The notes under the pieces were generated by a model, which worked only from the letters and a program-made list of their open reading frames with translations, searched no databases and was not told where the DNA came from. The position numbers and the translations under genes were made by a program. 32,058 nucleotides of DNA from assembly GCA_001816655.1 (NCBI GenBank), contig MHCP01000019.1, positions 1 to 32,058 on the forward strand, given 5' to 3'. Positions 10,985-24,064 of this stretch are shown here, one piece after another (within the stretch, counting starts at the first letter, position 1; the number at the start of each line of letters is the position of its first letter). Source of the DNA: Candidatus Woykebacteria bacterium RBG_13_40_15. GTDB taxonomy: Bacteria > Patescibacteriota > Microgenomatia > Woykebacterales > RBG-16-39-9b.

Positions 10985-11132
10985 CAAAAATATGCCACTG
11001 TGGACTTGAATAGGAGGTTTTATGGAGCGAGCCCCTCCGATATGAGCCTGCAGGAGCAGCGCCAAGAGTGATTGTCCTCAATTACTCTTGGCTGAAGTTA
11101 TCAACAAACCCAAAGCCAACTTTGGGTTTTTT
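10985..11132 (+). ncRNA. Candidate small RNA with two strong 3' hairpins
   Basis: This lies in the 315-nt gap between the CAP gene and the tRNA genes. A Shine-Dalgarno-like AGGAGG stands before ATG codons of two tiny frames (MERAPPI and MSLQEQRQE), and the GGAGG can pair with CCTCC just downstream, hiding it. CCAAGAGT and ACTCTTGG (about 11070-11096) then form a long stem extended by ATTG/CAAT, followed by a textbook terminator. No gene follows on this strand, so it is a free-standing short transcript, not the leader of a gene. The RNA family is not recognised. Confidence 0.4.
11107..11132 (+). terminator. Rho-independent terminator
   Basis: AACCCAAAG (11107-11115), loop CCAA, CTTTGGGTT (11120-11128), with a T-run to 11132. 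Confidence 0.85.
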
Positions 11133-11202
11133 ATGTTTAAGTTTTTAACTTGCTTTACTTGTAGAGTCGTCAGTAATCTGCCAGTTAAGGCATCGGTGGC
11201 TA

Positions 11203-11241
11203 CGCCCACCACCCTTCGCACAAGGCTTCGGGTGGTGGGCG
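11203..11241 (-). promoter_or_regulatory. 12-bp hairpin joining the tRNA 3' end to its trailer
   Basis: CGCCCACCACCC (11203-11214) and GGGTGGTGGGCG (11230-11241) are perfectly complementary. On the minus strand the first arm is the acceptor 3' strand plus the encoded CCA of the interrupted tRNA, and the second arm lies in the trailer. It would mask the mature 3' end until processed, or act as a terminator. Confidence 0.55.
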
Positions 11242-11458
11242 CGGATGGATTCGAACCATCGACCCCGTCTTTACCCCGATTTGATCGGGGCGCGAACTTT
11301 GCACCAAAGTAATCTAGTCAATAAAGACCCTGGTGGGCACACTTGGATTCGAACCAAGGACCCCCACTTTATAAGAGTGATGCTCTACCGCTGAGCTATG
11401 TGCCCAGCTTTGTCAAAGTTCGCTAAAGAGACGTGCTCTACCACTGAGCTACGCGCCC
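11233..11458 (-). tRNA. tRNA-Lys(UUU)-like gene interrupted by a 151-nt insertion
   Basis: Exon 1 (11458-11425): acceptor GGGCGCG, D-arm GCTC..GAGC, anticodon 5' stem CGTCT and loop start CTTT. Exon 2 (11273-11233): loop end TAA, stem AGACG, variable GGGTC, T-arm GATGG/CCATC with loop TTCGAAT, acceptor CGCGCCC, A, encoded CCA. Joined, they give a perfect 75-nt tRNA with loop CTTTTAA and anticodon UUU. Other joints would give UGU or GGU (Thr). The interruption (11424-11274) lies in the anticodon loop, follows a U and ends in G, and contains the complete tRNA-Ile on the same strand. A 10-bp inverted repeat, GCGAACTTTG (11292-11301) and CAAAGTTCGC (11414-11423), lies within the insertion. It could be an intron, a disrupted gene or an assembly artefact. 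Confidence 0.6.
11331..11405 (-). tRNA. tRNA-Ile(UAU)
   Basis: A complete 75-nt cloverleaf: acceptor GGGCACA/TGTGCCC, D-arm GCTC/GAGC, anticodon stem TCACT/AGTGG with loop CTTATAA (anticodon UAU), T-arm CTTGG/CCAAG with loop TTCGAAT, and encoded CCA. It reads AUA directly, without the lysidine-modified CAU tRNA that most bacteria use. It is nested inside the insertion of the tRNA-Lys-like gene. Confidence 0.88.
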
Positions 11459-11598
11459 AATCTAACGATCACATATTCTAGCAAAAAATTAGCTTTTGTT
11501 CAATTTTCTCAGTATTAATTTAAATATACAGTTTTTTGGTATAATCGGAAAGATTACATCTCGCGTTTATTTCTCTAGCGAGATATAATTGGAAAGCG

Positions 11599-12009
11599 AT
11601 GAAACTTCTTTACGCTTTGCTTTGTGACAATGCTTTTTTGTCCATCGATAAGAAAGTAAATATAATTGGGGTTTTTGAAACTATTGGGGCCTCTAAATTT
11701 CCAATAACTCACCCCAAGTTTGTTATCGTGGGTTCAATAGCTCCTGATAAGCGTAAATTCAAGATGAGTTTGAATATTGTCTCCGAAAAAAGCAAGGAAG
11801 CAATATTGGGAAATCTTCAGGAACGTGAGGTAAGCTTGCCCGAAGAAAGTAAAGATCAAAATTTCAATTTTATAATTGAAGTTGTCAACGCAAGCTTCAA
11901 TGAGCCAGGAATCTACAAAGTTGAAATTTCAATTGATGATAAAGTAGTAGGAGAAATACCGTTTAAATTAGTTGAAGGAAGTTTAAGTTCTGTTGGGTCT
12001 CCCTCTTAA
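11599..12009 (+). CDS. DUF6941-like protein
   Basis: A 136-aa soluble protein. The opening MKLLYALLCDNAFLSIDKKVNIIGVFETI, with the 'LCD..' and 'GVF' motifs, resembles the DUF6941 family common in uncultured bacteria. The rest is beta-rich with an NFIIEVVNASFNEPGIYKVEISID segment, suggesting an immunoglobulin-like sandwich. Function is unknown. TATAAT (11584-11589) ends 9 nt before the ATG, so it is probably leaderless. Its end overlaps the convergent recombinase gene by 4 nt. Confidence 0.7.
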   Translation: MKLLYALLCDNAFLSIDKKVNIIGVFETIGASKFPITHPKFVIVGSIAPDKRKFKMSLNIVSEKSKEAILGNLQEREVSLPEESKDQNFNFIIEVVNASFNEPGIYKVEISIDDKVVGEIPFKLVEGSLSSVGSPS

Positions 12010-12878
12010 AGCTCGCCAATCTTTATTGGTTCTTCCATTCTTCCTTGTATTAGATTTAAGTATTTTTCTGTAGTTGCTAGACGTTTGTGGCCGGCAAGTT
12101 TTGATACTAAAACTAAAGATGTTCCGGCCATCAGGTGATGGGCGACAAATGTGTGGCGAAGATCATTTACTTTAGCATTGCGTATTCCAGCCAGTTTAAA
12201 GTAGCGGTCAATTGCAGTTCTAATGTTTCTTACCAGAAGAGGTTTTCCGGTCTTTGTAATGAATAATGTTTCATTTTTACTTTCAGGACGGACATCCAGA
12301 TATTTTTTCAAAGAGGCTTCTGCGGCCTTGTTCAAAGGAACAGTTCTTTCAGGGTAGCTTTCACCAGCTGGGACATGCACTTCCCCTAGCTTGTTACTAG
12401 TACTAAAGTTTATATCCGCTAATTGCAATCGTGCCAGCTCACCAATTCGTATTCCCGTTTGAAGCAATAATTCTATAATTGCACCCATGCGAAAGTCCCC
12501 TCGAGCAGCGTCTCGGAGTGCTCGGTACTCTGTTTTTGATAAAATTCGAGGGGGTTTCATTTCAAACTTGGGGTGTTCAAGTAGAGAAGCGGGGTCGTCA
12601 GTAATGTAATCATTAATTTTCAAAAATCTAAAGAAAGTTTTTGTGGAATTTGTTTTTCTTGAAATACTCTTTGGGGTATAGCCTTCTTTTGAAAGCTTGG
12701 CCATAAAAGCCTGTAAGTCTTTAGTAGAAATGTCTTGAATACTTACCTTGTTCAATTGAGCCAAAAAGTCTCTTAGTTGCTCAATATCCTTACCATACGC
12801 TAAAACAGTCGCACTACTGCGGCCTTGACTTTTCAGGTGATCAATAAATTTTCCGTGGGCTTCATGAATTTTTGACAT
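12006..12878 (-). CDS. Tyrosine recombinase (XerC/XerD or integrase type)
   Basis: A 290-aa site-specific recombinase. The N-terminal SAM-like DNA-binding domain spans about residues 1-95. The catalytic domain shows TGIRIGELARL (first Arg), VNDLRHTFVAHHL (second Arg), LAGHKRLATTEKYLNL (His/Trp position and nucleophilic Tyr). The His of the usual HxLR motif is Asn here (NDLR). AT-rich, with a leaderless native-style promoter upstream, so it looks like a resident gene. The C-terminus overlaps the convergent DUF6941-like gene. It might be the dif resolvase or a mobile-element remnant; no attachment sites were identified. Confidence 0.85.
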   Translation of the reverse strand: MSKIHEAHGKFIDHLKSQGRSSATVLAYGKDIEQLRDFLAQLNKVSIQDISTKDLQAFMAKLSKEGYTPKSISRKTNSTKTFFRFLKINDYITDDPASLLEHPKFEMKPPRILSKTEYRALRDAARGDFRMGAIIELLLQTGIRIGELARLQLADINFSTSNKLGEVHVPAGESYPERTVPLNKAAEASLKKYLDVRPESKNETLFITKTGKPLLVRNIRTAIDRYFKLAGIRNAKVNDLRHTFVAHHLMAGTSLVLVSKLAGHKRLATTEKYLNLIQGRMEEPIKIGEL

Positions 12879-22426: not shown

Positions 22427-24064
22427 ATGAGGCTTACTAAATCGTACAAGTTAAAAATCTTACCTACCAATGAGCAGGTTAAGTTCCTTGAAGATTATTT
22501 CTCAAGATTCGCTAAAGCGGTAAACTTCTATATAAGTAAAATTGGCTTGCTTCGAAAAGACTATGAGTGGCTATCTAAGGACAAGCAGAAAAAAGGAAAG
22601 TGTGCGAATTGTGGCCAAAATACCGATCTTAGTCACAAATTCCTGCCTGCTAACTCCTTAGTTTGCCCCCGCTGCTATAATTACGAAGTTGGCGACCTTT
22701 TTATTAGAAAAAAGCTATATGCAACCAGAATAGGCCCAAATAAAAGAAAAAGGGGCAGGTTTGATGTTCGAGATGCAACAAAATTGCCGGGGACGGATTA
22801 CGCCTTAGCCTTCAAGAGAGCAGCCGATACTATCAAGGGACAAAAGAAACAACTGGGAAAAGTCAAAAAGCAGCTAGTTTTTACAGAACGACGCTTAAAT
22901 GAATGGATTGAGGTGCTTGAAAATAAGGAAACCCTACTACAAGATGGCAAAAAAGCCCTAACAAGATTTACACTTCCTAAAAAACCAGGACAGAAAGTAG
23001 AAAGATTTAAGCACATCCTTTATAAAGACAACCCATCCCAAGGAAAAACAGAATCCCAGATCAAAGGAATAATCAAGGCTTTGGATAGGACTGTTCAAAG
23101 GCTTACTAAAAGGTTAAAAACTGCGGACATTAAATTCAATGGGGACATTGTTGATCTTCACTACTCAGCAGTAAAAAACATTATAGAAAAATTCACCGAA
23201 ATAAGCCTTGATTTAAAAAAGCAACAGTTTCCAATTGCAGCAGAAAATGTAGTTTCTAAGAAAAGTAGGGGTTGGATTATTGAAAAGATAAACGAGATGA
23301 AAAAGGGCAAACCCTTATATCCGCTTCTTCTGAAAAAGAAAAACGATTTTTACCTAAGCTACCCAGTCCGATTGGAGCTAGAAGAACCAAAAGAGGAAAA
23401 AGTCACTAAAGCAATGGGGATTGATCGGGGAGTAAATCAAATAGCTGTTACTGCAGTTATTGACAGGCCTACAGATAAACCTCATCATATTGAATTTTAT
23501 TCAGGAAAAGACTTAATAAAAAGCAAATTAAAATACCAGCTAATAAGGAAGAAATTTACTGGAACAAAAAGTGTTAATAAACGCAGGGCAAAATTTGGAG
23601 AAAAGGTAGCAAGGGGATCTATGTATGTTCTCCACGATATTTCAAGGCAGATAGTAAATCAAGCAAAAGAACAAAAACCAATTGTTATTGTTATGGAAGA
23701 TTTAAAAATGATTCAAGGCGAGAAAAGGGTGAAAAAAGGAAGTGCCGTGAGGGAAAGAAAAGTCAATTTTCTTCTCTCCAACTTTAACTATGGCCGATTA
23801 CAAAGTTTAATTAGTTATAAGGCTTTACAAGAGGGAATCCCAATTAGGTTTATAAAACCTGAATATACATCCCAAACCTGTTCAAAATGCAGGGAAATAG
23901 GCAAAAGGACTAAGGGGTTTTTTCAGTGCGTCAATCCAAAATGCAACCATAAAATGAATGCAGATCTCAATGCCGCCATTAATATTGCAAACTCATATTG
24001 TAAGGAAGATTCATTTACAAAAAAGCCAAAAAGTGCTATATTGCAAGCGACGACGAGCTCTTAG
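22427..24064 (+). CDS. cas12f: Cas12f (Cas14)-like RNA-guided DNA nuclease
   Basis: 545 aa, in the Cas12f size range and larger than ordinary TnpB (about 400). The RuvC acidic triad is at D333 (GIDRGVN), E424 (IVMEDLK) and D513 (ADLNAAINIA); from memory, Un1Cas12f1 has D326, E422 and D510 in 529 aa, a close match in spacing. A C-terminal zinc ribbon has C485, C488, C501, C506 (TCSKC..CVNPKC). An N-terminal zinc finger, C59, C62, C80, C83, is a Cas12f trait not usual in TnpB. The middle (about 130-260) is lysine-rich and helical, suited to RNA binding. Directly downstream lie a tracrRNA-like segment and two repeats ending in GGAATGCAAC. A TnpB relative is the main alternative. No adaptation genes are nearby, and composition is like the native genes. 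Confidence 0.88.
   Translation: MRLTKSYKLKILPTNEQVKFLEDYFSRFAKAVNFYISKIGLLRKDYEWLSKDKQKKGKCANCGQNTDLSHKFLPANSLVCPRCYNYEVGDLFIRKKLYATRIGPNKRKRGRFDVRDATKLPGTDYALAFKRAADTIKGQKKQLGKVKKQLVFTERRLNEWIEVLENKETLLQDGKKALTRFTLPKKPGQKVERFKHILYKDNPSQGKTESQIKGIIKALDRTVQRLTKRLKTADIKFNGDIVDLHYSAVKNIIEKFTEISLDLKKQQFPIAAENVVSKKSRGWIIEKINEMKKGKPLYPLLLKKKNDFYLSYPVRLELEEPKEEKVTKAMGIDRGVNQIAVTAVIDRPTDKPHHIEFYSGKDLIKSKLKYQLIRKKFTGTKSVNKRRAKFGEKVARGSMYVLHDISRQIVNQAKEQKPIVIVMEDLKMIQGEKRVKKGSAVRERKVNFLLSNFNYGRLQSLISYKALQEGIPIRFIKPEYTSQTCSKCREIGKRTKGFFQCVNPKCNHKMNADLNAAINIANSYCKEDSFTKKPKSAILQATTSS

Follow-up and report, generated by a model that had tools for sequence, protein, structure and literature searches.

In Candidatus Woykebacteria, a tRNA gene is split in its anticodon loop by another, intact tRNA gene, and similar nests occur in other families of the Patescibacteria. 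The window, that is, the whole stretch of DNA analyzed here (32,058 nucleotides), is one entire contig of a 0.98-Mb MAG. The nested arrangement is real and recurrent and, as far as the searched literature shows, undescribed: no description of nested tRNA genes was found in the open-access literature searched, a set without preprints and most subscription journals. Genes for tRNAs, usually seen as indivisible, are stacked here in the loops of genes of the same kind across the phylum, and standard tRNA finders show only the innermost tRNA of each nest.

Structure of the locus

On the minus strand (11458-11233), a perfect 75-nt tRNA is interrupted within its anticodon loop, in the order outer 5' half (34 nt), insert (151 nt), and outer 3' half (41 nt) (Table 1). 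With long introns allowed, ARAGORN called a tRNA-Lys(ttt) at c[11233,11458], placing a 151-nt insert behind its position 35, and a tRNA-Ile(tat) at c[11331,11405] within that insert; the inner tRNA-Ile was the sole call at the locus by plain ARAGORN and by Rfam (73 bits). This mode of ARAGORN invents outer tRNAs in tandem arrays, and all nests included in this analysis were therefore inspected visually. Joined in silico, the outer gene (the "shell") forms 21 of 21 stem pairs and is a canonical tRNA with an encoded CCA.

The insert starts with AGCGAACTTTGACAAAGCT and ends with GGTGCAAAGTTCGC G CCCCGATCAAATCGGGG. A 10-bp helix (H1) surrounds the inner tRNA, and a 7-bp hairpin (H2) abuts the outer 3' half. 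The original prediction had described all these parts, namely, the 75-nt tRNA split by 151 nt, the whole tRNA-Ile(UAU) on the same strand within the interruption, the 10-bp inverted repeat, and the CCCCGAT/ATCGGGG hairpin, and its positions proved exact. It had also likened the junction to that of group I introns, and the junction indeed reads CTTT^A...GGGG^TAAAG, with insertion after U and G as the final insert base; this G is not kept in the E-type inserts of other genomes described below. The inner tRNA-Ile(UAU) is presumably the working tRNA of the locus.

Table 1 Features of the nested tRNA locus and its surroundings in the window
Feature	Position	Strand	Description
Shell 5' half	11425..11458	-	GGGCGCG TA GCTC AGTGGTA GAGC A CGTCT CTTT; last base is position 35 of the anticodon loop
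H1, 5' strand	11414..11423	-	GCGAACTTTG; pairs with 11292-11301; the first insert base is the A at 11424
Inner intact tRNA-Ile(UAU)	11331..11405	-	CCA encoded
3' trailer of tRNA-Ile	11302..11330	-	Small hairpin GGTC-TTTATT-GACT
H1, 3' strand	11292..11301	-	CAAAGTTCGC
H2 hairpin	11274..11290	-	CCCCGAT-CAA-ATCGGGG; ends exactly at the start of the shell 3' half
Shell 3' half	11233..11273	-	TAA AGACG GGGTC GATGG TTCGAAT CCATC CGCGCCC A CCA
Diverged copy of hairpin repeat E (dispersed)	11540..11589	-	TTATA TCTCGC..GCGAGA TG TAATC..GATTA TA; beside the nest
Tyrosine recombinase	12006..12878	-	Phage_integrase, PF00589; downstream and antisense of tRNA-Ile(UAU)

The hairpins recur in other genomes. 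The 5' strand of H1 is identical in two related genomes, G005 and G006; the trailer hairpin of relatives varies in stem sequence with its pairing kept (AGTC/GACT, AGCC/GGCT, and TTCC/GGAA, by eye and from folds); and hairpins at the place of H2 can be read from the sequences of G001, G039, G187, G063, G400, and G526.

Once the inner tRNA is removed, the insert folds far better than shuffled sequences (z = -5.5; 0/200), and its helices are H1 and H2; the whole 226 nt also folds better than shuffles (z = -4.7). In the minimum-free-energy fold, the shell stems, H1, and H2 are retained, with H1 and H2 branching off the anticodon stem, and the inner cloverleaf is imperfect. No bulge-helix-bulge (two 3-nt bulges around 4 bp) is present in this fold at the exon-insert borders. 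In G002, a paired GGGCGCTT/AAGCGCCC is left at the former shell site, by itself weakly significant (z = -1.6).

Fate of the shell in related genomes

The locus was compared across the family that includes Candidatus Woykebacteria, as the original prediction had proposed for related genomes. The neighborhood of the tRNA-Ile, with an adjoining DUF6941 and/or CAP/Colicin_V gene, is common to seven genomes of seven genera, and synteny of the nest is preserved among MAGs of the family that were assembled independently. For example, G005 carries the same Lys-type nest with the same H1, and G003 has three nested layers, the outermost of which has lost its anticodon loop. In G001, the 5' half is chimeric, best explained by a deletion between nested halves, and the 3' half is one base too long. 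In G006, one contig retains the 5' half together with the insert, and another has no shell; in G002 and G004, the shell is lost. The inner tRNA is kept in all seven family genomes, and the outer one is lost or reduced in three (G002, G004, and G006).

The tRNA locus (window 11150-11470, compared with L066, L065, and L077) is inverted against its flanking genes in the window's genome and on contig C44 of G006 and is not inverted in G005 or on contig C18 of G006, so that both orientations occur within one MAG.

Recurrence across the Patescibacteria

Ile-in-Ile, Arg-in-Arg, and multilayer nests were found in other families of the Patescibacteria. Among ∼75 tRNA-Ile(UAU) loci of the class that were read, 18 genomes, by a visual count, have a nest or half-tRNA relics beside an intact gene. 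When 380 genomes of the phylum were scanned by pattern, 9 had matches, compared with 1 for a reversed-pattern control; the matches include Ile-in-Ile nests in G400 and G526, an Arg(UCU)-in-Arg(UCU) nest in G075, four stacked 5' halves in G634, and relics in G379. The match in G596 was rejected as a nest and attributed to chance. Several 3' halves were found in G039. In G514 (L242), another match of the scan, an Arg(UCG) tRNA lies inside the T-loop of another Arg(UCG) tRNA and is followed by a further truncated 3' piece, and in G122 and G171, hairpins are inserted in the D-loops, with the cross-half stems still perfect.

Wherever both can be named, the inner and outer tRNAs are the same isoacceptor, the exception being the UUU of the window and G005, where the outer bodies are equally close to Ile and Lys. 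The body of the window's outer gene matches the genome's own Ile-UAU at 60/75 positions, the Ile-GAU of G003 at 64/75, and its own Lys-UUU at 59/77. Judged by these identities, the outer gene resembles tRNA-Ile at least as much as tRNA-Lys, and the "Lys" label reflects only the chosen junction.

Pairing between the outer halves

In 14 layers, chosen for recognizable halves on both sides, the two stems that connect the halves (acceptor and anticodon) have 167 of their 168 pairs formed, with 13 different acceptor strands among the layers; halves mismatched across genomes form 7.9 of 12 pairs, and 100,000 permutations reached a maximum of 146. The matching pairs show that the halves belong together and, by themselves, give no date for the constraint.

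The comparison with G005 bears on the constraint itself. The two genomes share the insertion and the neighborhood, from which the orthology of their shells is inferred, and the neighbor protein is 57% identical. The 14 differences between the shells all fall in stems and break no pair, and none of the 29 unpaired positions has changed; when 14 changes were placed at random, this combination arose in 0 of 100,000 trials, with the caveat that the acceptor stem may be a block exchange, as G006 has GGGCGCG just outside GGATCGG. The loops, including CTTT^TAA, are fully conserved, and the discriminator and CCA differ (G73 and no CCA in G005). The shell thus evolves with compensated stems, and the plain pseudogene that the original prediction had offered as an option fits poorly: decay without compensation is not seen in these two shells, and the shells of G002, G004, and G006 are decayed or lost. 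The loop conservation favors a tRNA-like role and counts against a pure clamp, which needs none. Several shells, however, keep their loops less than their stems, as with the D-loop inserts of G122 and G171, the loop loss in G003, and the CCA loss in G005.

A folded shell, a spliced tRNA, or a relic

Because the shell, on balance, conflicts with a spliced-tRNA reading, we tentatively favor, at slightly less than an even chance, a folded shell around the precursor of the inner tRNA-Ile. An older tRNA gene, probably of the Ile type, would have been hit between positions 35 and 36 of its anticodon loop by an insert made of a tRNA, whose leader and trailer pair as H1, and the 3' hairpin H2. The replacement tRNA-Ile would then take over from the older gene, and repeated events of this kind could build nests of three or more layers; no insertion step was seen between near-identical genomes. 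Such an insertion would be tolerated because the insert brought a replacement tRNA, and we infer that the same-isoacceptor rule arises because the loss of a single essential tRNA gene to an insertion is survivable only with a replacement. The rule thus suggests that an insertion is tolerated for carrying the very gene that it destroys. The split old gene would stay as a shell. Outside H1, its halves would pair through their acceptor and anticodon stems and hold the precursor of the inner tRNA in a closed and ordered structure until RNase P and the enzymes of 3' processing release the tRNA-Ile; no spliced outer tRNA would be expected. If the shell is not joined, selection has turned tRNA halves into a scaffold for folding, and successive gene takeovers are preserved in the layers like fossils.

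Alternatively, the insert could be an intron of a new kind, from which the inner tRNA-Ile is excised while H1 holds the halves and the outer exons are joined into a tRNA with the anticodon UUU in the window and UAU elsewhere. Joining at 35/36 would give a perfect 7-nt loop in many lineages, and the near-complete cross-half pairing, the stems compensated between the window's genome and G005, and the loops conserved between them, which exceed the needs of a clamp and favor a tRNA-like role, are in accord with it. We nevertheless consider splicing rather unlikely. Intact tRNA-Lys(UUU) and tRNA-Lys(CUU) genes are present elsewhere in the window's genome, with Lys(UUU) at G000:C14:71735, and in G005; the original prediction had named an intact Lys(UUU) gene as something to look for and as one half of a refuting condition, the other half being the lack of a spliced product, and its presence rules out the outer gene as the essential Lys gene. 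RtcB is missing from all seven family genomes (4 of 59 relatives have it), ruling out RtcB-dependent splicing, and no group I or group II intron or small ribozyme in Rfam matched the region 11180-11620 at E ≤ 5, so that such elements were rejected as the identity of the insert, in agreement with the expectation that it lacks a group I core. Furthermore, the insert ends vary between lineages, the anticodon loop cannot be restored in the outermost layer of G003, the 3' half of G001 has its extra base, the D-loops of G122 and G171 contain hairpins, the G514 nest is in a T-loop, and the shell is lost in relatives. The original prediction holds in its claim of a tRNA gene inside a tRNA gene and is not supported in implying a functional spliced tRNA-Lys(UUU), given the intact Lys genes and the absence of RtcB.

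A specific route in which ordinary processing frees the inner tRNA and the outer halves, kept together by H1, are sealed at 35/36 by an activity independent of RtcB is quite unlikely. If true, one transcript would yield two tRNAs, one from inside the other; joining of the shell by any means would represent an undescribed route of tRNA splicing in bacteria.

It is likewise unlikely that the outer halves are simply the neutral remains of a tRNA gene inactivated by a replacement-carrying insertion, their good pairing reflecting a recent event. Relic halves, lost halves, and series resembling growth rings (the 5' halves of G634 and the 3' halves of G039) are what this account expects, and the outer genes are redundant. 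A recent event, however, is at odds with the divergence of the neighbor protein between the window's genome and G005, across which no pair has been broken and no unpaired position changed, and shells with loop inserts or a lost CCA are still fully paired.

Possible origin of the inserts

In G001, G003, G039, and G187, the ends of the Ile-in-Ile inserts resemble TTATA followed by TCTTGC..GCAAGATG-TATTC-TTGC-GAATA and then TAA. Repeat E is the same two-hairpin unit without a tRNA, with TAATC/GATTA, a paired change, as its H2; it is dispersed and intergenic and was matched 25 times in G002 and 6 times in the window's genome, with further matches elsewhere, including G006, G195, and G078. Its copies are ∼50 nt long, preceded by TATA, often near gene starts, and sometimes in tandem. 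In G002, the loop of the first hairpin of E holds other cargo. Repeat E looks like a small mobile palindromic element, and because the nest ends resemble E and its first loop carries cargo, it is plausible that the tRNA-Ile was carried in the loop of an E-like hairpin unit on insertion. The ends of the window's insert share the H1-plus-H2 layout of E and differ from it in sequence. As dispersed repeats, narrow patterns for the window-type ends (which would miss the window's own copy) and for the CCCGCCTGCC-type ends found nothing beyond a known nest. Repeat E was rejected as an intron of protein genes, its copies being mostly between genes. A phage origin was also discarded: the E and window motifs are absent from the viral contigs searched, and the nested-half matches read there were protein genes or tandem tRNA arrays. 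A candidate empty site was found in G015, where an intact tRNA-Ile, 67/72 identical to the G187 shell, shares its acceptor stem with that shell and adjoins the same NAD-kinase-like gene.

Genes for tRNAs are common integrase targets, and the gene for a tyrosine recombinase with the motif GHKRL(S/A)TTEKYL is found downstream of tRNA-Ile(UAU), in antisense orientation, in the window's own and many other families of the class. That a tyrosine recombinase makes the nests, with the anticodon loop (TTATAA) as its attachment site, is nonetheless very improbable: the gene is present with and without nests, the usual outcome of integration (one intact tRNA restored, with longer direct repeats) is not seen, and both Arg nests and a T-loop nest exist. 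The recombinase in the window is a lead only. Misassembly or chance, the former allowed for in the original prediction, has practically no prospect of explaining the nest and is ruled out, since the layout, although known from draft MAG contigs only, recurs in MAGs of different projects (MHCR01, JACZRW01, JAUYHE01, and others) and in other families.

Other features of the window and its genome

On the plus strand, positions 11012-11135 form a hairpin-rich intergenic stretch that ends in a terminator-like stem and T-run. Its architecture is similar in G002 and G006 beside the same gene, with no convincing Rfam match, and it is possibly an unknown structured RNA. A TnpB/Cas12f-like protein (PF07282) is encoded at 22427-24064 on the plus strand, followed by ∼600 bases without a gene. 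Elsewhere in the genome, L078 (G000:C25:116845-117109) contains a second tRNA-Ile(UAU), two tRNA-Asn genes, and an unusual tRNA-Val(AAC); a partial tRNA lies immediately upstream of this group, which looks like a foreign tRNA array.

Comparison with known systems

When tested against the known families of tRNA introns, the nests did not qualify as members. Group I introns of bacterial tRNAs also interrupt the anticodon loop and share the U^...G^ junction. In contrast, the nested insert has no core, its 151 nt include a 75-nt tRNA, and it matches no Rfam intron; moreover, the insert ends vary among lineages, and one nest is in a T-loop. Archaeal tRNA introns spliced by proteins at a bulge-helix-bulge likewise interrupt a tRNA with conserved cross-exon stems, but here that geometry and the ligase are absent and the insert contains another tRNA. 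In the split and tri-split tRNAs of the archaea Nanoarchaeum and Caldivirga (PMC2237900, PMC10714607), complementary sequences flank the separate pieces, as H1 does here for the two halves. Unlike in those systems, both halves belong to one bacterial locus with a whole tRNA between them, and there is no bulge-helix-bulge and no RtcB. Twintrons resemble the nests in consisting of nested insertions, but the nested items here are tRNA genes of the same isoacceptor and belong to no recognized intron family. Finally, tRNA-targeting integrative elements and small palindromic repeats (REP/MITE and IS200/IS605-derived) share with the nests the targeting of a tRNA loop, and several Ile-in-Ile ends resemble the TATA-preceded repeat E, for which no linked transposase was identified. 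The difference from both kinds of element is that the insert carries a whole replacement tRNA and leaves its target permanently split.
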